Of a stretch of 64,000 nt of DNA, positions 28,493 to 51,474 are shown piece by piece. The notes beneath the pieces are model-generated. The model ran no database searches, was not told the origin of the DNA, and saw only the letters and a program-made list of their open reading frames with translations. Numbering within the stretch: the first letter of the stretch is position 1; the number at the start of each line of letters is the position of its first letter. Position numbers and translations under genes: made by a program. Source of the DNA: Obelidium mucronatum (taxonomy: Eukaryota > Chytridiomycota > Chytridiomycetes > Chytridiales > Chytriomycetaceae); NCBI GenBank assembly GCA_025765595.1, contig JAIVFH010000116.1:1-64000 (forward strand), written 5' to 3'.

Positions 28493-31400
28493 TCAGCCAC
28501 GCACAGGCCGAACTCCAATGAATTCCCTGTGTTTCGAAAACGCCGGATATGGTAAGTTCTTCGTTCCAATATCCGAACAGTTTCCCGTTCCCGCTACATG
28601 ACTAACTTCAACAACGCCCGATCGCACATGGTCCCGAATAAACTCCACACGGACAACCTCATGCTTGATGCGTTCCAAAGCCTTGTCACTATTCGCAATC
28701 TTTACAGCTGGCATATTGTCGCTGTAAAGCTTGAACGATTTGGTTTCAACTCCGAGTTCTTTCAACAACTCTAGTAACCACAATCCTTCACAAAGTCCGT
28801 AAAAGATTGCTGCAATCTCCGCCATAGCAGTTGACGTTGCTGTTACCGAGTCCTGCTTCGATTTCCAACTCACAAGGTTACCGCCGAGAAAAACCATGTA
28901 GCTCCAGACAGACTTGCCGGATTCTAAGTCCCCAGCCCAGTCCGAATCAACCCAAACCTCAAGTTCGAGATGACCACGATCATTGTAGTGAAGACCGTAA
29001 GTTGGCGTTGATGCCAAATAGCGAACCACTTCAATTCCCGCGTTCCAATGCGACGCGTTCGCATTCGCGTTGTGCTTCCCCAAAGCTCCCAAGTAGAAAC
29101 AAAGCTCCGGCCGAGACCATACCATTGGGTACATCAATTTTCCGACCAGACTCCGGTAGTTGTTTTCTGTGGGTAAGTCCTCCACAGACGCCTTTTCCAA
29201 CCTAAGTCCCGCAGGGAACGGTGTTTTTCTCTCCTTCCCGCCAGACAATTGGTAGTCCCCAATTACCTCTCGTATCGCTTGCGTTTGGTCAATGACCAAC
29301 CACTGCTCCTCTAAATCCCTTGTGATTGTTGTCCCAACATATTTGGCAACATCACCCAAATCTTTCACACTAAATTTCGTCGTGAAAGCCTTCCAGAATT
29401 CATCAAAATCCCTTTGATCCAACTTACTAAACATTGTCAGGATATCATCTACCCAGACAACAATAATAATCGGTTTCCCCGATACTGATCCCTTCTTGAT
29501 GAAAATACATTTCTCAGCAATTAATGCCAAGAAACCAATACTCTCCATGAACGCCTTCAACATTCGTCGCCAACAATTACCCGCCTGACGCAGACCATAC
29601 AACGCCTTCAACAGGTAACAAAACAACACCTTCCCATCTTCACCCAAAACTTCGAAACCCGGAGGTTGTTTCATCCAAACTTCCTCACCATCCAAGCTCG
29701 CACTAACAAATGCTCCCCTGACATCCGATTGATGCATTTTCAATTTCCATACCACCGCTAACACAAAACATACCCGAATTGCCGCCAACTTTGCTACTGG
29801 CGCAAACGTTTCCAGATAATTCACCCCTTCAACTTGCAGGTCACCGCGAGCACACAGACGCGCTTTCCTTTCATCCTCAGGTAGTACCATTGGACCAGTC
29901 TTTTTGTCGAAAACCCACGTCGACGGAACCGCTTTGACATTCTTAGGTTTGTCGGACCGCAAGACCCAGGTTCCATGTAAGTCCACCAGAGTAGAAATTT
30001 CCTTGAACATGGCTTTTTCCCATTTCTGTTTCTCCTCGGCATCAAGACATAAGTACTCCTGATAGTTTTTAGGTACAGTTAGAAACGCAACATGACTTGA
30101 CTCATCATCTGATTCAGCGTAGTTCTTTCGGGCGACGGATCTTCGTGGACGATTTTGTGTTGGTGTGGATGGAGGAGATGGCGCCGGTGTTCCAAAAACA
30201 GACGTAGTCGTTGACGATGGACCTTGCGACGCTGTGTCATAGTCTGTCGCCTCCTCACCTACATCATCACCAACACTTCCATCTATCACCCCCTCGTCCA
30301 CAATATCCTCATCCGAATCACTTTCCATGTCCCCCGAAAAATCCCACATCTTATCCAAAACATCCGCTGTTTTTCCTTCAAACGAATTACCCAATTCGTC
30401 AAATCTTACACTTGTGGTAATAAAGATTTCCTTTGTCTCTACATCAACCACTTCATACGCATGCCCACCTTGTACGTAATTCAAGAACCGACAAGCACGC
30501 GATCGCTTATCTAACTTCTTCTTTCCTTTCAACAGCTCCTTTGGCACCCTCGCCCAACAAGCCGCACCGAATACACGCATTGGCATCCGTTTGAAGTCCG
30601 GCTTCTTTCCGGTAAACCCCTCTATTGGCGTCACTTCCAATTCCGCATATGGCGACCTATTCGCAACATATGTCATACACGTCAAAGCCTTAACCCAATA
30701 CTTAACAGGTAACTTCGACTCCAAAAGTGCTGTCCTCGCCTTATCGAAAAGGACCCTATTCGAAACTTCGGCCACTCCATGCTGTTGATGTTCGTAAGGC
30801 ACGATGAATTGCTGTTCGACCCCCAGTGAGTCCATCAATTCCGCAAATTCGCCAAACTTAAACTCTTTAGCATTATCCGACCGAACACACTTCAACTTTT
30901 CCCCAGACTGGCGTTCAGCCCAAGGTAACCACGATCGAAAAATTTCCACTAATTTGCTTCCCGATCGCCGACTTACTGGAAACGAAAATCGCATTCCAGT
31001 ACAGTCATCCGTCAAAACCAGAGCCACGGTTTCACCATCAAGACCCGGTACGTTGACAATCACAAAATCCATATGGATCAAATCCATAGGTTTCTTCGCA
31101 CGCTCATTTCCCGATGATTTGAAGCTACGATGCGTATGTTTCCCCTCTACACACGACTTACAAAAGTCAATCCCTTCATCCAACTGCCCCTTGGACAAGG
31201 TAAGACCTTCCACCATCCCTTTTAGACGTTTCATGTTCCCCAGGCTTAAATGTCCAAGCCGCTGATGCCACAGTTGAACATCCGGTACCGCAAGACCAAT
31301 ATGCTCAATATTTAGTGGTTCAATTTGAAGAATCCAAAGACCCGCTTTGTTCTTCTTGGAACACATGAACTCCTCGCCTTTTACCATGAACCGACGAACG

Positions 31401-32566
31401 CCATCTTGCGAAACAGTTGTAGCACCTTTCGCATCAAAAGATGATGACGAAACCAGATTTGCCGCCATACCAGGTACGTGATAAACTTCCGTTACAGTCA
31501 CACGAGTTTCAGAACCATCTGACAACTTTGACTTGAACTCCACAATACCGACACCGCAAATATCCAGTTCCTCATTGTTTCCAACTCTCACAGTCCCCTT
31601 ACACTCAGCGTAAGTACTGAAACACCGACGATCATAGCAATATGTCTTCGTCGCCCCCAAATCATCAACCCATTCACCAGACTTAGAACTTGATTCCTCA
31701 TTTCCATTCGCCATGAACGAAAAGTGAACCGACTTTGTCTTCGATGAAGGTTGGTTGTCCTTTTTCATGGCCGGCTTACCGCCACCACTACCACTGGACC
31801 CTTTCTCCTTCCAACCCGTCTTAGGTTTGTTTTTACAATCCCTCCAACGATGACCAACTTTTCCACATCTGAAACATTCACTTGTTTCATCCCCCGCAGC
31901 AAAAGCAGATTGCCCTTTTTGCGATCCCTTGACACCACCACCAGAACCACCCTTTCGATTCAACTCATTCGAGTGTTCCGTTATCAATCGAGCGACCTTT
32001 TCTCTGGTAAGCTTCGATTCCTCCTGCGCCCTGATTGCAGTCTTAAAACCCTGCCAATCAGCATTGTCAGGTAAACCCCTCAACAACAGCGTCGCATGGA
32101 GTTTGTCAATATCGAGTCCTCCATTATTGTCAATTTCGGTAAATATGCCATTCATAGCCCCGATATACTTTGACACTTCGGACCCAGACTTCAATGTGAC
32201 ATCAAGCAACCGATCAAGTCTCGACAACGACGACGACGCAGAATCAGATTCATATTGAGTCTTAAACGTCTGAACCATATCGTACGCAGTCTTGCAATGT
32301 GCAACCAGACTTAATGCATCTCCGCTCAACTTGCCAATCAAGAAACCCCTAGCCTTGGCATCGTCAGTCCTCCTGGTCTTGAGCTTTGCATTGAACGCTG
32401 CAGTTGTAGTGGCATCGGCCCCCGCTGGTAGTAACTCTGGATCATCCAAGACATATAAAATATCCTTGGCTTCCAGTACCGTAATATACTTCAAGTAAAA
32501 ATGTGGCCAATCCACACTTCTTGACTCAAAGGATTGAATGGACTTGTAAAAATCGTCCCCCATCAC
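28493..32566 (-). CDS. Ty1/copia gag-pol polyprotein
   Basis: One 1357-aa ORF carries all copia domains in order. Gag ends in a zinc knuckle (C231-x2-C234-x4-H239-x4-C244). The protease region is at about 300, then integrase with its His/Cys zinc domain (LWHQRLGHLS...CKSC) and DDE residues in HMDFV, RSDNAKEF and GVAEVSNR. Reverse transcriptase follows with the VWVDDIL box, and RNase H with VWVDSDWAGD. The protease site reads W-V-D-D-L-G-A-T where copia proteins have D-S-G or D-T-G, so the protease may be impaired. Apart from that the ORF is intact. Confidence 0.97.
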   Translation of the reverse strand: MMGDDFYKSIQSFESRSVDWPHFYLKYITVLEAKDILYVLDDPELLPAGADATTTAAFNAKLKTRRTDDAKARGFLIGKLSGDALSLVAHCKTAYDMVQTFKTQYESDSASSSLSRLDRLLDVTLKSGSEVSKYIGAMNGIFTEIDNNGGLDIDKLHATLLLRGLPDNADWQGFKTAIRAQEESKLTREKVARLITEHSNELNRKGGSGGGVKGSQKGQSAFAAGDETSECFRCGKVGHRWRDCKNKPKTGWKEKGSSGSGGGKPAMKKDNQPSSKTKSVHFSFMANGNEESSSKSGEWVDDLGATKTYCYDRRCFSTYAECKGTVRVGNNEELDICGVGIVEFKSKLSDGSETRVTVTEVYHVPGMAANLVSSSSFDAKGATTVSQDGVRRFMVKGEEFMCSKKNKAGLWILQIEPLNIEHIGLAVPDVQLWHQRLGHLSLGNMKRLKGMVEGLTLSKGQLDEGIDFCKSCVEGKHTHRSFKSSGNERAKKPMDLIHMDFVIVNVPGLDGETVALVLTDDCTGMRFSFPVSRRSGSKLVEIFRSWLPWAERQSGEKLKCVRSDNAKEFKFGEFAELMDSLGVEQQFIVPYEHQQHGVAEVSNRVLFDKARTALLESKLPVKYWVKALTCMTYVANRSPYAELEVTPIEGFTGKKPDFKRMPMRVFGAACWARVPKELLKGKKKLDKRSRACRFLNYVQGGHAYEVVDVETKEIFITTSVRFDELGNSFEGKTADVLDKMWDFSGDMESDSDEDIVDEGVIDGSVGDDVGEEATDYDTASQGPSSTTTSVFGTPAPSPPSTPTQNRPRRSVARKNYAESDDESSHVAFLTVPKNYQEYLCLDAEEKQKWEKAMFKEISTLVDLHGTWVLRSDKPKNVKAVPSTWVFDKKTGPMVLPEDERKARLCARGDLQVEGVNYLETFAPVAKLAAIRVCFVLAVVWKLKMHQSDVRGAFVSASLDGEEVWMKQPPGFEVLGEDGKVLFCYLLKALYGLRQAGNCWRRMLKAFMESIGFLALIAEKCIFIKKGSVSGKPIIIVVWVDDILTMFSKLDQRDFDEFWKAFTTKFSVKDLGDVAKYVGTTITRDLEEQWLVIDQTQAIREVIGDYQLSGGKERKTPFPAGLRLEKASVEDLPTENNYRSLVGKLMYPMVWSRPELCFYLGALGKHNANANASHWNAGIEVVRYLASTPTYGLHYNDRGHLELEVWVDSDWAGDLESGKSVWSYMVFLGGNLVSWKSKQDSVTATSTAMAEIAAIFYGLCEGLWLLELLKELGVETKSFKLYSDNMPAVKIANSDKALERIKHEVVRVEFIRDHVRSGVVEVSHVAGTGNCSDIGTKNLPYPAFSKHREFIGVRPVRG

Positions 32567-32600
32567 GTAAGTTCAGTAATAAAGCTTGGTGCTGATAACG

Positions 32601-44210: not shown

Positions 44211-45474
44211 TCAATAATCGGCTTCAGCCGCAGGCCATTTCAAAGCTCGAGTGTATCCTTCCTGGTAACCAAGATTCCCAGCAAGTTGAAAGTACTCTAT
44301 GGCATTTTCCAGAGACACTTGTCCACCAACAATAGGGCTGCCGATTTCCCATAACTCTGCAAGCCTGAAAATGGCAAGCGGGTTACCGTTGTTGACAGGA
44401 TAGTTTGTAATAGTCGAACGAAAGCGCTGGATCCACATTCTCCATCTCCTTTGCGAAGAAGTACTGCGCGGAATGCTTTTGGCTGTGGTCTCCATCAGCC
44501 GCAATTTTGAGGTATTTATGAAATTTATCATCCTGTTTTGAGACATGTGACATAATGAAAGCATACTGGTACGAGCTTTCGATATATTGCGCGTTAAGCT
44601 CTTTTGGTAGAGGCTTGATATCGGCAGGTGGCGGCAAAAGCAGAAATCTTGGATTCAAGATGAGGAATGATGATCCCAGTAAAACCATTCGTGAAGTTCT
44701 TGGTATGTCTTGACAACTAATGTGCGCTTTCCATTACCAGAAACCAACGTCTCGAAATGACGATTGGTTAGTTCAATGAGCCCGTCAATATCACCTGAAG
44801 TTAAAATGGTTAATTCATTATTCCCAAACGAGCGAGACATACCGAACTGTAATCCCATGATTTCTGGTATCACATCCTGTTTTACAGCCACGGCGATCTT
44901 CTGAGGTGGCTCCGCATCACGATTCCAAGATGCGACAGGTTATCGGAGATGGATCAGCGTTCACAGATATACATTGCGACTGACCAACAGCTGTTAAAGC
45001 ATCCACTAGTTCCTTGATTTCACCCTCGGCTTCAAACTTAAATGATCCCGACAATTTCAGCAGAATCAATTTCCGAGTGGACATCCACTTGACAAATGCG
45101 GAGGATTTCTTTCCACTCCTCCATCAAGTGATCCGAAAGTCCTTCAGCCAACCGCAAAGCCATCAATTTCAAAGTAGGGCGCAGAAATCACCACAACATA
45201 TGTGTTTGTTCTGGCGTTTGTCAGAATCCCCTTCTCGTCCTCACTTCGTTTTCTTGACAAACAGGATCTGGGTACTTTGGTTTCGGTACTTTGAATCAGT
45301 TTTTCTGCTTGACGATTTCGACTGATTCCAGTTTTGCTTCTTGTGGGCATGGGCAAGAATCCCATGTTTGCCCAGGTAATACTGAAGCGGATCAGCCCAT
45401 TCTGCTTCGAATTCATCCGCATAGGATATATAGGCGTTGTAGTTTGGAGTAACTCTTGATTTCAGCAACATCAT
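44211..45474 (-). CDS. TIR-like domain + Sel1 repeats, module 2 (frame-broken)
   Basis: The N-terminal part (from 45474) reads YNAYISYADEFEAEWADPLQYYLGKHGI, a TIR box-1-like strand and helix. A TYVVVISAP strand and a LKLMALRLAEGLSDHLMEEWKEIL helix follow, matching TIR-like module 1 at 48.2-48.7 kb. The C-terminal half is Sel1-like (FHKYLKIAADGDHSQKHSAQYFF, AIFRLAELWEIGSPIVGGQVSLENAIEYFQLAGNLG). At least four single-base frame changes break it, the clearest being an extra T after GCGCCC near 45170. It directly continues the dioxygenase frame upstream (minus strand), so it may be part of the same gene. TIR proteins act in immunity and NAD+ hydrolysis; the role here is unknown. Confidence 0.6.
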
Positions 45475-46880
45475 ATTGTTGCTTACGGTCCTTCCAAGCG
45501 GGCACCACTACCATAATGACAGCCGAAGAATAAACATAACCCACTGTCGCCTCATTCCCATAATGCAAATACTCGTGCCGATTCATCTTCAATGGACTGC
45601 CAAACCAAACCACCTTCTTGTTATCCACTTCAACCACATGTCTCCTGCCGCGTCCTTTAGAAACTTGAATTGCTCTTCATATTGATGGTCAGAAGATTCA
45701 TGGAAATTGCCTGAATTGGGTACCAAGCACATACGAATCCGTGTATCGCGCCCCGTCATACAGTGGCTTCACAAAAACTTGCAGACCACATGCAACTGCG
45801 GCCTCAAATACAGACATGTCTGCTCCTTTCAGCAACGGAATAACAGTTTCACTGTCAATCGCGGCTAGAGTTAGAAGATCTCGTCCCGCCGTCCTTCTGA
45901 AGGATGCTGGTTCTTGGGTAACTTGATACGGCGTGTTGGCAATGAAACATGAGAACGGCACCGCTTTCAAAAAAGAATTGCTCTGACAATTGGGCTTGGA
46001 ATTGTGTCAGGAAGGCGCAATCGCGAGGTAACGACATCTCAGCGTTCAACAGCACTTCTTCAGCCAGGCTCCGTTTGAATAAATTGTAGGTCAGTGTGAT
46101 GCGGGTTCCGGACACAATTGGTGAGATTTCGTGTGGGCAGTCAGAAAAGAATGCGGCCCATTGAATCAGGTGGTTATTTGAATCACTTTCTTTGGTCGAC
46201 GGGCCCCAATCAAAGGATTTGGAAGAATCCGAATTTTTTGATTTGGAGTACGAGTCAGATTCTCCTCTGGTGACATGTGAGAATTCCGCCGTCAAAGGCA
46301 ACAGGGAGACAGACTACAAGAGATCCAAACATGTCTGCAGAAATTGGAGTATCCACATGTGCTTTGAAAAACCCTTCTGGCCCGTACACATTGAGTTTAT
46401 GAAGTTCGGCGTGAATGTCAGAGGACGGCTTAATCTTGCTCTCAAGAACAAGGGCTTTCTTGATCTTGTTGATTACTCCAGTGGAATAAACATCAAAAGT
46501 TGTAGCAAGACACGATCCGTCAAGTTTCAACGCTTTTCGATAATTAGCATCCAAGACTGTTTCCGTGTTGAATCCAAAAGATGCCGGGCTGCAATATTCC
46601 AATCAATCCATCAACTTGAGAAGCATCCGACAAGGGAAAAGACAATTTTTCGAATATGAGAGTCGACGGACGACTTTTGCTTGTCAGAATCTTGTTCAAA
46701 AAGAATCTTGACTGGCGATTCTGCGGATACCGGAAGAACTCCACTCACGCAGAATTTGCGATCCAACTGGTTCAAAACTTGACCCAACTCTTTGATTACC
46801 TTCCTCTGTTACGGTCGTATGGATTACTCCTTCCATTTCTTCGGGCTCGGTATCCGCAGTCTCCTCAATTTCATCATCTT
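45413..46880 (-). CDS. 2OG-Fe(II) dioxygenase domain (prolyl-hydroxylase-like), frame-broken
   Basis: Protein segments in successive frames assemble into a recognisable fungal 2OG-Fe(II) oxygenase. N-terminal part: LGQVLNQLDRKFCVSGVLPV and a DASQVDGLIGILQPASFG segment. Double-stranded beta-helix core: LHKLNVYGPEGFFKAHVDTP, giving the H-x-D iron ligands. Then SADMFGSLVVCLPV, WAAFFSDCPHEISPIVSGTRITLTYNL with the distal His and the 2-oxoglutarate Arg. The C-terminal end is HYGNEATVGYVYSSAVIMVVVPAWKDR. Frame breaks are single extra bases (for example CCC for CC near 46597, GG for G near 46790). All metal and cosubstrate residues are present. Confidence 0.7.
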
Positions 46881-46884
46881 CGTT

Positions 46885-47110
46885 GCCCACGCCATCAGAG
46901 TTAACGGAATCATTGTCACCCTCTTCGTTGCCCAAGTCATACCAGTTGTTGGAATCATTGTCATCATCTTTGTTACCCAAGTCATCCGAGTTACTGGAAT
47001 CATTGTCATCCTCTTCGTTACCCAAGTCATCCGAGTCACCGGAATCATTGTCATCCTCTTCATTATCCAATTCATTTGAGTTAGCGGAGTCATTTTCATC
47101 GCCTTCATCA
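46885..47110. repeat. in-frame tandem repeat encoding acidic DDNDS/NSDDLGNEE units
   Basis: Four to five copies of a roughly 45-bp unit, with slight divergence, encode about 75 residues of Asp/Glu/Asn/Ser. They link the Sel1 region of module 1 to the dioxygenase. The period is a multiple of three, so the frame is kept. Confidence 0.85.
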
Positions 47111-49452
47111 CCGCGCCGAGCCGGAGCCTTGATCCGCTTCACAACTTCAGGAAACACATAGTCGTCCTCTAACCGATACAAAGCAATCACATCTCGCTTT
47201 CCATTCCCAGAATCTTTGCCACGGCCACCTCGACCAAGCCCGTTTCTTCTCTTTAAACATTCAAGCGCTCGCTTTCCAGATTCCTTATGCCCAAGTTCTT
47301 CCCCTTGTTTGTAATACTCCAAAGCGTTGGCCATCGATGCTTTCCCACCAACAACCACACTTCCAGTTTCCCAAAGCTCAGCCAATCGGAAAATTGCGTC
47401 CACTTCTTCACATGAAGCAGCATTTTCATAATAATGAAGCGCGAGGGATGGATCTGTGGATTCAATACACTGCGCGAACCGAATCTGACAAGGCCGGTCA
47501 TGCAACCGCGCGCCAATCTCAAAATATTTTTGCGCGGCAGCTCTTGCGATTTCAGATGGACCTTGATCACTGGCCTCGACCGCCGTGGATTCACCAACCG
47601 AAGCAGCAGCAAAGTCATTCGGAAATTTCGATATCAAGTCTGCATAGCAAAAACAAATATCTGTTTTCTTGGACACCAAGCTGAAGCCCTCGTTATCAAG
47701 GCTGTCGTCTTCATCTTGGCCAAAGGCTTCTGCATTTCCGTCAGGTGCGATTTTTGCAATCTCGTCGTCAATGTAGTGGAGGATTCGGGGAAACCAAGAA
47801 AAGACTGTGGGTAGGGAGTGTGGAATCTTTAGTTCCTTTGACTTTCGATGAGTGGTGTGCCATTCGTGGTGTTGCCTTGCCAACAATTCAAGAGCATCAA
47901 GGGTATTCGTTTCTAGATCAACAGCAACCAAAAAAGTGTTAATTGATGATTCAAATAACAAGACGGAAAAAAATGGTACCAAAATGTAACGCAGCTATAT
48001 TACACGTAATCTCTCTGACAACGCGGTCCATGGCTTGGTACCCATCGTCAAATGGAACGTCAATAGTAATACTAGCACTACCACTGATTTCCTCCAGTTC
48101 ACTTAAAATTTTGGCAATGGCCGGATGCTGCTCCTTCTGCGACTTGAACCCATTGATCAAAGAATGGCTTTCGGAGTGACTTGGGAGTTTCAACAAAACA
48201 AGTTTTCGAGACGGATTCTTTCGAACAGTGCGAATGATTTCTTCCCATTCCAAGAATAACGGGTCCGAAAGACCAGCCGCGAACCGCAGTTGCATGAGTT
48301 TCAATGCGAATGGGGTAATGATGGCAACAATACCATCATGGGCTTTTTCAATCGCTAAAATATCATCCGGATGAAGCGAATCAAGTGGGACATGGTGTGC
48401 ACTTGGTGTACTTGAAGAATTTCGGCAGGAACTTCTGTGGCATCAACACTTTTCCCACTATGACATTTCTCCGCATCAAATAGCTTTTCCATAACGCTTT
48501 GAGCTGGATATGAATATGAGTTGTATCGGCCCGTTCCACATTCATCCACCATGTAAGCAGAAAGAGCAGTTTCAGTCGCAAACCCGACTTGCAGCAACTG
48601 AGCCCAATCATTGTCAAAATCTCGAGAGCAAGATATGTAGATGCTGTGCTCAGGTGTATGGTCCCGTTGATTCGATAAACAAAGCCGAGGCTCTGATGGG
48701 AACAACTTGCGTCTGTTGGTGATAACGGAATGGTGAATGCGAGTATAGTACTCGATTGATTTCTCCAGGTCCTGTTCAACACCGGTTCCACGTGCATACC
48801 ATTGGGCTAGCACTTGTTCCGCCTCGCGTTTGGATGCAAATGGTCCTTGATCTGTTGAAGCAGATGAAGCTACTTGTTCGAAATAGCGGGCAGCCAAGGT
48901 CAAGTCCTGTTTGACAACCTTTCCTTCATACAACCTCATGGCCGCTTCCCACGCAGCTTCGCACAACCCCTTATCCGCAGCACCTCGACAGCAAACGCAT
49001 CGCTTCAGTTTGGTCTGTTGTTGCTTTGGCCCTTTTGAACATTGCCTCTGGAAGACCCAAGTGCAAGGCAGCGATTACACTTGCAGCTTCTTTAACGCTT
49101 ACAAAACATTCTTTTGCAGAGTTTTTCAGCTGAGTCCAAATGCGCTCAGGGTCAGTTTGAGTGGCCAAGTCGCCTTCAACTTGCAACGAATCGTCAACGA
49201 CAAACAGCAGCGTTTCTTCTTTGTTTGCGAGAAGGGAGCTCCATTCGGCCACTAGAGCGCTGTCGCTAGCGAGGTCCGAACGGAGTGTCTTGTTGGTATA
49301 ACAACCGTCACTGTTGGTGGAGAGCCGGCAGTCTCGGTCGCGTTAGTCAGTCCAAAGTACTGGAACTCGTAAATAGAGCTCTTAATGTTCCACTGGTTGC
49401 TGCCGTCTTCGGGATCGTGGGAGACGATGCGAAAGGTGGGACTGTCTCGCAT
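46885..49452 (-). CDS. Sel1 repeats + TIR-like domain + Sel1 repeats, module 1 (frame-broken)
   Basis: Exon 1 (49452-49361, MRDSPTF...) is joined across a 50-nt intron with a CTGACTAAC branch site to exon 2 from 49310. Next come Sel1-like repeats (ADKGLCEAAWEAAMRLYEGKVVKQDLTLAARYFEQ, AEQVLAQWYARGTGVEQDLEKSIEYYTRI). A TIR-like domain follows (SIYISCSRDFDNDWAQLLQVGF, HDGIVAIITPFALKLMQLRFAAGLSDPLFLEWEEIIRTV), then more Sel1-like repeats (ARAAAQKYFEIGARLHDRPCQIRFAQ, AIFRLAELWETGSVVVGGKASMANALEYY) and the acidic tandem repeat. Frame changes occur near 48970 (extra T in AGGTGCTGC) and 48400. TIR-Sel1 pairings are known from bacterial conflict proteins; that parallel is inference. Confidence 0.65.
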
Positions 49453-50505: not shown

Positions 50506-51474
50506 TTAATTGGCAGAAGTGATCCACTCTTCATGGGCAAACTTCCAGTTGTACACTTCTTCTGGCTTGAACCACAAGTCAATTTCAACAGTAGCACTCT
50601 CAAACGAATCAGATCCGTGGATCGCGTTACGTCCGACAGAAATTGTGTAGTCACCACGGAAAGATCCTGGCTCAGACTATGCAAAAAGAGAAGAAAAAAA
50701 AACACAGAGTGTTGGTTAATACTCGATTGTGACTTACAAAAAAAACATCAAGAATCACCTCCAAGGGGTTAGTGGCTCCGATGATGCGACGACCTTGTCT
50801 AATCACATCAACTATGGTGGGGATCGTTGAAGGGTTAGTGAAAAACACGTGGGAAATACGATCAAGAAGGTCTACATACTTCCTTCCCAGACCATGGCAA
50901 TGACAGGTGCCTTTCCAGAGGTCATGTAGTTGACAAGACCCTTGTAGAAGGGACGCGCCTTGAGCTGTTGTGTGTTTTTTGTTTGTTGGGAGAAAGGGTT
51001 TAACAAGCAGCTGTCAAAGCAAAACAGTAAAGAGACAACAGCATACGTCTCCATAGTGCTCCTCCGCCAGCTTCCTTGGATGGAACAATGGCCTTAATTC
51101 CAACCAACTTGTACCCGCGGCGTTCGAATCTGTGAATGACCTCTGAGATCAAACCGCGCTGGACGCCGTCTGGCTTGATGGCAATAAACGTGCGCTCGAC
51201 GCCGCCCTTTGTGCCCGCGGCAGTCTTTACTGGCGGGGCAGCGGCAAGCAGCGGCTCTGAAAGACCGACGCGGTTAGAACCCTGCCGCAAAACAACAAAC
51301 AACACAGAAACGAGTCTTACGCTGGCTGCGCGCGTACAGCGCTGCGCCGACGCCGGCCGCAAGCGCCGCAACGCCGACTGCGGCGCCGGCGCGGGGCGCA
51401 ACGCGCGGCGCGGCGCTGCTCGACGCCATGCGCGCAAAGCGAGAAGCGGCGGGGAAAACTCTGCGGCCAAACAT
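50506..51474 (-). CDS. NDK1: nucleoside diphosphate kinase, mitochondrial/membrane-anchored type
   Basis: Exon 1 from ATG 51474 encodes a presequence-like Arg/Ala-rich start and a [19 protein letters not shown] helix. Later exons give [83 protein letters not shown], and [25 protein letters not shown] with the catalytic His of RNAIHGSDS. It transfers phosphate from ATP to other NDPs. Near 51080 an extra G (AAGGAAGCTG) breaks the frame just before the expected [10 protein letters not shown], most likely an assembly error. The N-terminal anchor suggests a mitochondrial intermembrane-space form. Confidence 0.85.

Follow-up and report, generated by a model that had tools for sequence, protein, structure and literature searches.

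The 64,000 nucleotides analysed here (the window) form the first part of contig 116 (bases 1-64,000) in a genome assembly of 48.3 Mb in 694 contigs; contigs of this assembly are denoted by C and their number, so that the window lies on C116. Matches over the cut-off to IFT57 and chitin synthase point to the genome of a flagellated, chytrid-type fungus. On the minus strand of the window, from 49,452 to 44,211, lies a gene in which TIR-like and Sel1-repeat modules, an acidic repeat and a 2-oxoglutarate (2OG)-Fe(II) oxygenase follow one another in the order TIR-like/Sel1, acidic repeat, oxygenase, TIR-like/Sel1. The block starts with an ATG at 49,452 and finishes with a stop codon whose last base is 44,211, and open pieces in changing frames lie between the two. 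A preliminary description of this DNA had placed TIR-like/Sel1 modules on both sides of the oxygenase on one strand, and we confirm this at the coordinates given above. The domain order is beyond chance: it recurs elsewhere in the genome, where the open frames are as long as 1,245 amino acids (aa). In full, the order can be predicted to be an N-terminal region with Sel1 repeats, TIR-like module 1, a Sel1 region, the acidic linker, the 2OG-Fe(II) oxygenase, TIR-like module 2 and a further Sel1 region.

With the module 1 piece as query, 12 matches were obtained in the genome, and with the oxygenase piece 8; both numbers include the window itself. The family matches lie on C77, C186, C168, C241, C194 and C116 itself, and an oxygenase without the other parts is found on C339 and C110. 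The gene is laid out in long open frames in C77 (560 and 1,245 aa), C186 (616, 159 and 1,075 aa), C168 (473, 859 and 280 aa) and C241 (154, 889 and 222 aa; this contig starts inside the gene). C77, C186 and C241 each have a single open frame (1,245, 1,075 and 889 aa, respectively) that contains the acidic linker, the oxygenase and module 2, and the 859-aa frame of C168 spans the linker and the oxygenase and stops inside module 2. Since four copies thus have the linker, the oxygenase and module 2 (in C168 its first part) in one frame, the gene should encode one protein of about 1,700 aa. Some contigs form near-identical pairs, i.e. the similarity is 93% between C77 and C186 (over 6.9 kb), 98.3% between C241 and C116:83-88 kb (over 4.3 kb) and 96.4% between C339 and C110; the haplotypes therefore seem to be separate in the assembly, and some pairs may be alleles. 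Counted in this way there are about five family loci, namely C77/C186, C241/C116:71-85 kb, C168, C194 and the window. Beside the C77 copy there is a 410-aa open reading frame (ORF; L029:1-1230, minus strand), similar to one beside C186, that has a P-loop-like stretch by eye and no Pfam match at E<=0.01.

The window copy as a whole (44,211-49,452) consists of three exon blocks whose order is the same as in C77, C186, C168 and the available part of C241, and its frames are broken as assembled. Exon block 1 (47,980-49,452) holds the N-terminal region, Sel1 repeats and TIR-like module 1; it is 65% identical to exon 1 of C77 over 485 aligned residues, with 3 frame changes and no stops. Its best Sel1 stretch is at 48,739-48,819, within the ORF 48,355-49,074. 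TIR-like module 1 (47,980-48,684) was delimited by alignment to module 1 of C77 and to the family alignment, the window piece itself giving no TIR hit; its box-1-like strand starts from 48,639 and the Glu of its W-x-E motif is at 48,241. Exon block 2 (44,843-47,912) comprises a helical region, a Sel1-like stretch (47,287-47,400), the acidic linker (46,871-47,100), the 2OG-Fe(II) oxygenase with a C-terminal extension (45,460-46,796) and TIR-like module 2 (44,843-45,432, located by tblastn pieces to C77), with 67% identity over 933 aligned residues, 12 frame changes and no stops. Exon block 3 (44,211-44,794), a C-terminal helical and Sel1 region, is 48% identical over 188 aligned residues and has 3 frame changes. 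The blocks are separated by two probable GT..AG introns, intron 1 at 47,913-47,979 and another after module 2 at 44,795-44,842; both were placed by comparison with the relatives, whose introns carry the same motif. Blocks 1 and 2 each end at an H-x-G motif that is followed by the intron, and the junction reads G|GT there in all module ends of the relatives that were inspected (7 out of 7) and twice in the window. The near absence of intergenic DNA noted in the preliminary description thus reflects one gene with two readable introns.

The Sel1 repeats are supported by profile matches (Pfam cut-offs are 30.7 bits for Sel1, PF08238, 27 bits for PF13640 and 28 bits for TIR_2). Among 10 window pieces, Sel1 was over the cut-off in one and below it in two, PF13640 gave a weak match in one, and there was no TIR match. 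The N-terminal Sel1 stretch is at 35.3 bits, and the middle and C-terminal ones stay below the cut-off (19.5 and 14.9 bits). In the relatives the values are 36.4 and 43.9 bits in C77, where the latter belongs to the ORF corresponding to the middle stretch, and 35.8 and 46.1 bits in C186. The acidic tandem repeat proposed as an in-frame linker is present as a 45-bp repeat of 5.1 copies according to repeat analysis, but the window copy around it is not one open frame.

The two TIR-like modules resemble each other far more than shuffled sequences do, with z values of 52 in C168 and 21 in C77, and the Sel1 parts of the modules likewise give z values of 74, 32 and 68. The paralogy suggested for the two modules is thereby upheld, and the box-1-like strands and LKLM-LR-GLSD-EW helices described earlier were found in both of them. 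The N-terminal region is similar to the Sel1 region in the middle of the protein (z 7.4 and 3.8), as is expected for Sel1. A third TIR-like half at the N-terminus, suggested by eye, was ruled out by z values of -0.8 to 0.2 against the module parts in 4 pairs, and a z of 8.9 in the N-terminus comparison is merely due to 13 residues common to overlapping cuts. The simplest history would be an internal duplication of one TIR-like/intron/Sel1 unit.

The oxygenase domain is over the PF13640 cut-off in two copies, C241 (31.4-33.8 bits) and C168 (28.6 bits), and under it in C186 (23.0 bits), C77 (21.9 bits) and the window piece (14.2 bits). In an alignment of four copies (A2, 413-441 residues), the H-x-D motif, the distal His and an Arg ten residues later are invariant in all four. 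The same residues, already noted in the preliminary description, are present in the window copy, where the first bases of the minus-strand codons are at 46,359 (His), 46,353 (Asp), 46,133 (distal His) and 46,103 (Arg). A PDB search with the oxygenase listed no oxygenase structure up to E 10. PADLOC gave 2OG as its sole match (E 1.1e-4), and an NCBIfam scan gave nothing below E 0.1. The oxygenase standing alone on the C339/C110 pair is 45-48% identical to the 2OG piece of the window and has the H-x-D and distal H..R by eye; it differs from the family in that PF13640 is its sole Pfam match, with no TIR or Sel1.

Selection was assessed by the ratio of nonsynonymous to synonymous substitution (dN/dS) according to Nei and Gojobori. 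A ratio was obtained in 14 out of 25 comparisons, dS being saturated in the rest, and the values range from 0.06 to 0.38. Between C77 and C186 the ratio is 0.06 for the oxygenase, 0.28 and 0.18 for modules 1 and 2, and 0.37 for the N-terminal/Sel1 region; between C168 and C241 it is 0.11 for the oxygenase, 0.12 and 0.24 for the modules, and 0.23 and 0.38 for the Sel1 regions. The five remaining ratios are 0.14-0.37. By region, the TIR-like parts span 0.12-0.37 and the Sel1 and N-terminal regions 0.14-0.38, and the oxygenase has the lowest value in both full pairs, in C168/C241 by a slim margin. In-frame pieces of the window compared with C77 give 0.10-0.32 in 7 out of 8 cases, the eighth being saturated. 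These values indicate purifying selection, under which the fusion is kept as a protein.

Not all copies are intact. In C194 the H-x-D core is gone inside an open frame of 531 aa, a Tyr stands at the position of the distal His, and no module 2 was found among the downstream ORFs of at least 60 aa. The second copy on C116 (71-85 kb) lacks a stretch of about 180 bp which, in its haplotig C241, includes the distal His and Arg. This copy is also in two parts, approximately 71.2-73.5 kb and from 83.3 kb (the locus extends to about 85.5 kb), with about 9.8 kb lying between them; the break is where the oxygenase region starts, directly behind the acidic linker, and in C241 the parts are joined. The loss in C194, the loss of about 180 bp and the split copy suggest a turnover of copies, which fits a role in conflict or self/non-self recognition without showing such a role.

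Are the modules TIR domains? The evidence comes from a nine-row alignment of the modules (A1) and from profile scans. TIR_2 matched 4 of the 9 proteins scanned (E 3.2e-4, 0.0085, 0.018 and 0.028) over 29-49 residues, all under 28 bits, and likewise 4 of the 9 rows of A1 at E<=1. These matches start at profile position 1 or 2 and end at positions 28-48, the later half of the profile being unmatched. Considering modules only, TIR_2 was found in 3 of the 5 scanned, i.e. in both modules of C168 (E 0.0085 and 0.018) and in module 2 of C77 (E 3.2e-4), over 36-49 residues and with no other Pfam family listed. There was no TIR_2 match in module 1 of C77, module 2 of C241 or the window piece, and the other two of the nine proteins were N-terminal regions. 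In the whole ORFs of C77 and C186 the matches were weaker (15.4 and 12.4 bits). The preliminary description had made the TIR assignment depend on profile hits to the modules: such hits exist in C168 and C77, but they are all partial and below the cut-off. All nine rows of A1 share the W, E and I of a W-x-E-I motif. We guess that this Glu may be the catalytic Glu of TIR NADases. A control profile made from 7 ordinary TIRs of the genome (A4; 3 of them from a TIR-Sel1 array on C36) found 78 PDB sequences at E<=1, with the plant protein Roq1 as the top match, and among the 60 of these that were listed nearly all are TIR, SEFIR, Toll-like, SARM1 or plant resistance proteins. Comparisons of the family modules with the genome's ordinary TIRs by hhalign and hmmsearch were negative, and a profile link between the two was rejected for this reason. 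The TIR identity of the modules is in our view moderately supported, and by our own estimate these TIR-like modules would be real TIR folds with a chance of about three in four.

Taken together, we consider it about an even bet (roughly 50%) that the window gene belongs, as one of several copies, to a small family whose product is a single protein of about 1,700 aa that acts as a sensor or scaffold and a hydroxylase. What carries this reading is the open frame common to the other copies, the kinship of the modules, the purifying selection and the conserved 2OG residues, all of which are read from the sequences. In its history, a TIR-like/intron/Sel1 unit would have been duplicated internally, and an oxygenase of the kind that also stands alone in the genome would have been placed between the two units. 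We propose that the family may form an intracellular sensor or scaffold around a hydroxylase core. The Sel1 solenoids would bind partner or foreign proteins, and the TIR-like domains would have an assembly or signalling function, which might include cleavage of NAD+ by means of the invariant Glu. A protein that has been bound would be hydroxylated by the 2OG domain, and oxygen, iron and 2-oxoglutarate might in this way influence the output.

Several results weigh against this reading. Firstly, the TIR identity rests on a partial match below the threshold (at best 21.6 of 28 bits), and none of the 28 places listed in a genome-wide TIR_2 search, 23 of them over the cut-off, is in the fusion family. 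Secondly, A1, module 2 of C77 and a further TIR-like family profile (A5) found no TIR chain in the PDB up to E 10. It is because of these partial matches below the cut-off, and of the negative PDB and profile comparisons, that we call the modules TIR-like. Thirdly, two scans each of viral contigs and prokaryotic genomes by short patterns found no family relatives. In addition, C168 itself requires one frame change, and turnover of copies occurs in ordinary gene families too.

The rival that survives best, a serious but unlikely one, is that the window copy is a genuine pseudogene of the family that has decayed recently. A frameshift-aware alignment to the C77 protein requires 18 frame changes (3, 12 and 3 over the three exon blocks); in comparison, C186 requires 2 (both at a probable intron), C168 1 and C241 0, C168 and C241 being aligned over part of C77. 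The changes do not lie in long homopolymers, the longest run around each being 2-4, and no haplotig of the window copy was listed. Other long genes of the window are open, namely a 718-aa S9 peptidase ORF, a 1,359-aa ORF (28,493-32,572, minus strand) that we take by eye, from its motifs, to be a copia-like retrotransposon polyprotein, and a gene at 56.5-59.3 kb, presumably GFAT-like, that is intact by eye. All of this speaks for decay. Against it stands the fact that the 18 frame changes are accompanied by no in-frame stop at all. Four pairs of sister contigs pooled have one frameshifting indel per 13.2 mismatches, a ratio at which about 9.5 stops would be expected for 18 frameshifts; the probability of finding none is about 7e-5 at this ratio, and 0.03-0.5 at indel to mismatch ratios of 1:5 to 1:1. 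A neighbouring gene for nucleoside diphosphate kinase (NDK; 51,197-50,530, minus strand, PF00334), 1.1-1.7 kb from the window copy, is also frame-broken, with one break near 51,070 and no room for an intron by eye. Moreover, over 1,338 bp the C116:71-73 kb copy and its haplotig C241 are separated by 7 frameshifting indels but as few as 9 mismatches; these differences are close to where contig C241 begins, and either side may be wrong. The lack of stops and the frame break in NDK weaken the idea of a plain pseudogene, and we consider patchy assembly indels the likelier source of the broken frames.

A doubtful alternative is that the modules have some other alpha/beta fold, so that the protein would be a 2OG hydroxylase mounted on a Sel1 scaffold. 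It would then have a task in protein quality control or in translation, as other 2OG and Sel1 proteins do, and no link to immunity. The partial TIR_2 match and the negative PDB and profile-profile searches speak for this possibility, as do a weak Flavoprotein match that module 2 of C241 gave instead (E 0.035), the low dN/dS of the oxygenase and its stand-alone relative. On the other hand, TIR_2 is the sole Pfam hit in three modules and is matched from the very start of the profile, and the same genome has ordinary TIR genes, some of them with Sel1.

One can go further than the sensor or scaffold role and propose an immune-type family, in which two TIR and three Sel1 regions surround a 2OG-Fe(II) hydroxylase and TIR signalling is controlled by, or linked to, hydroxylation that depends on oxygen, iron and 2-oxoglutarate, i.e. 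an oxygen-dependent TIR receptor. The copies on C194 and C116:71-85 kb would then be decoys or on their way out. We regard this stronger version as quite unlikely. Finally, of the two options in the preliminary description, one giant protein or three nested genes, the single protein with the domain order given above is kept on account of the open frames in the relatives, and three closely packed genes, to which the broken frames of the window might point, are very improbable and were rejected, since linker, oxygenase and module 2 (in C168 its first part) share a frame in C77, C186, C168 and C241 and the exon blocks are joined by what appear to be short GT..AG introns in corresponding positions.

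We thus regard this as a genuine fusion protein of unusual composition that occurs in several copies; the function given above is inferred. A family that unites TIR signalling and 2OG hydroxylation, kept by purifying selection with some of its copies losing the oxygenase residues, would connect metabolic state with TIR-type signalling in early fungi in a way that can be tested. It also illustrates that a gene which looks broken in a given window may have intact family members elsewhere in the same assembly.

It is useful to compare the general features of this family to known TIR systems. SARM1 and other TIR NAD+ hydrolases presumably offer an analogy, as the conserved Glu of the family, in the helix after an inner strand, could be at a position analogous to their catalytic one; they differ in that PDB searches gave no sequence match from the family. 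To our knowledge, TIR signalling and 2OG hydroxylation have been studied as separate systems.

As far as the accessible portions of the literature searched go (including PMC7159879, PMC4986451, PMC9815663, PMC4102429 and PMC10853773), the TIR-like/Sel1/2OG architecture was not found there. Fungal NLRs with TIR-like or HET effectors, as described in PMC9815663 and PMC4986451, share with the family the presence of TIR-like domains in fungal proteins. They differ in that the family has an oxygenase instead of NACHT or NB-ARC, neither of which was found at E<=1 in the four ORFs of C77 and C186 scanned. According to PMC9815663, TIR has been reported in chytrid NLRs, and PMC4986451 gives no NLR hits in the chytrids examined there.

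The same genome contains ordinary TIR genes as well. A 743-aa ORF at C31:166-169 kb (L001) has an ordinary TIR_2 (66.4 bits) together with a BTK zinc motif (27.3 bits). At C36:111-130 kb (L038, L039) there are 4 places over the TIR_2 cut-off, with ORFs combining GTPase and coiled coil, and further Sel1 ORFs, between them; the GTPase ORF scanned matches MMR_HSR1 at 34.4 bits and AIG1 at 17.2 bits, below the cut-off, and a second ORF is alike by eye. The TIR-Sel1 array on C36 (L002, L005, L008, L039) differs from the family in having no oxygenase in the ORFs scanned and GTPase ORFs nearby, and in that the three of its TIRs included in A4 match solved TIRs and have no detectable kinship to the family modules. 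TIR_2 reaches 52.9 bits in the ORF of the array that was scanned, and Sel1 reaches 26.8 bits there (below 30.7) and 75.6 bits in a neighbouring ORF. The overall architecture of this array and of the fusion family is nevertheless similar, in as much as a TIR or TIR-like domain is followed by Sel1-type repeats in both, with several copies on one contig.

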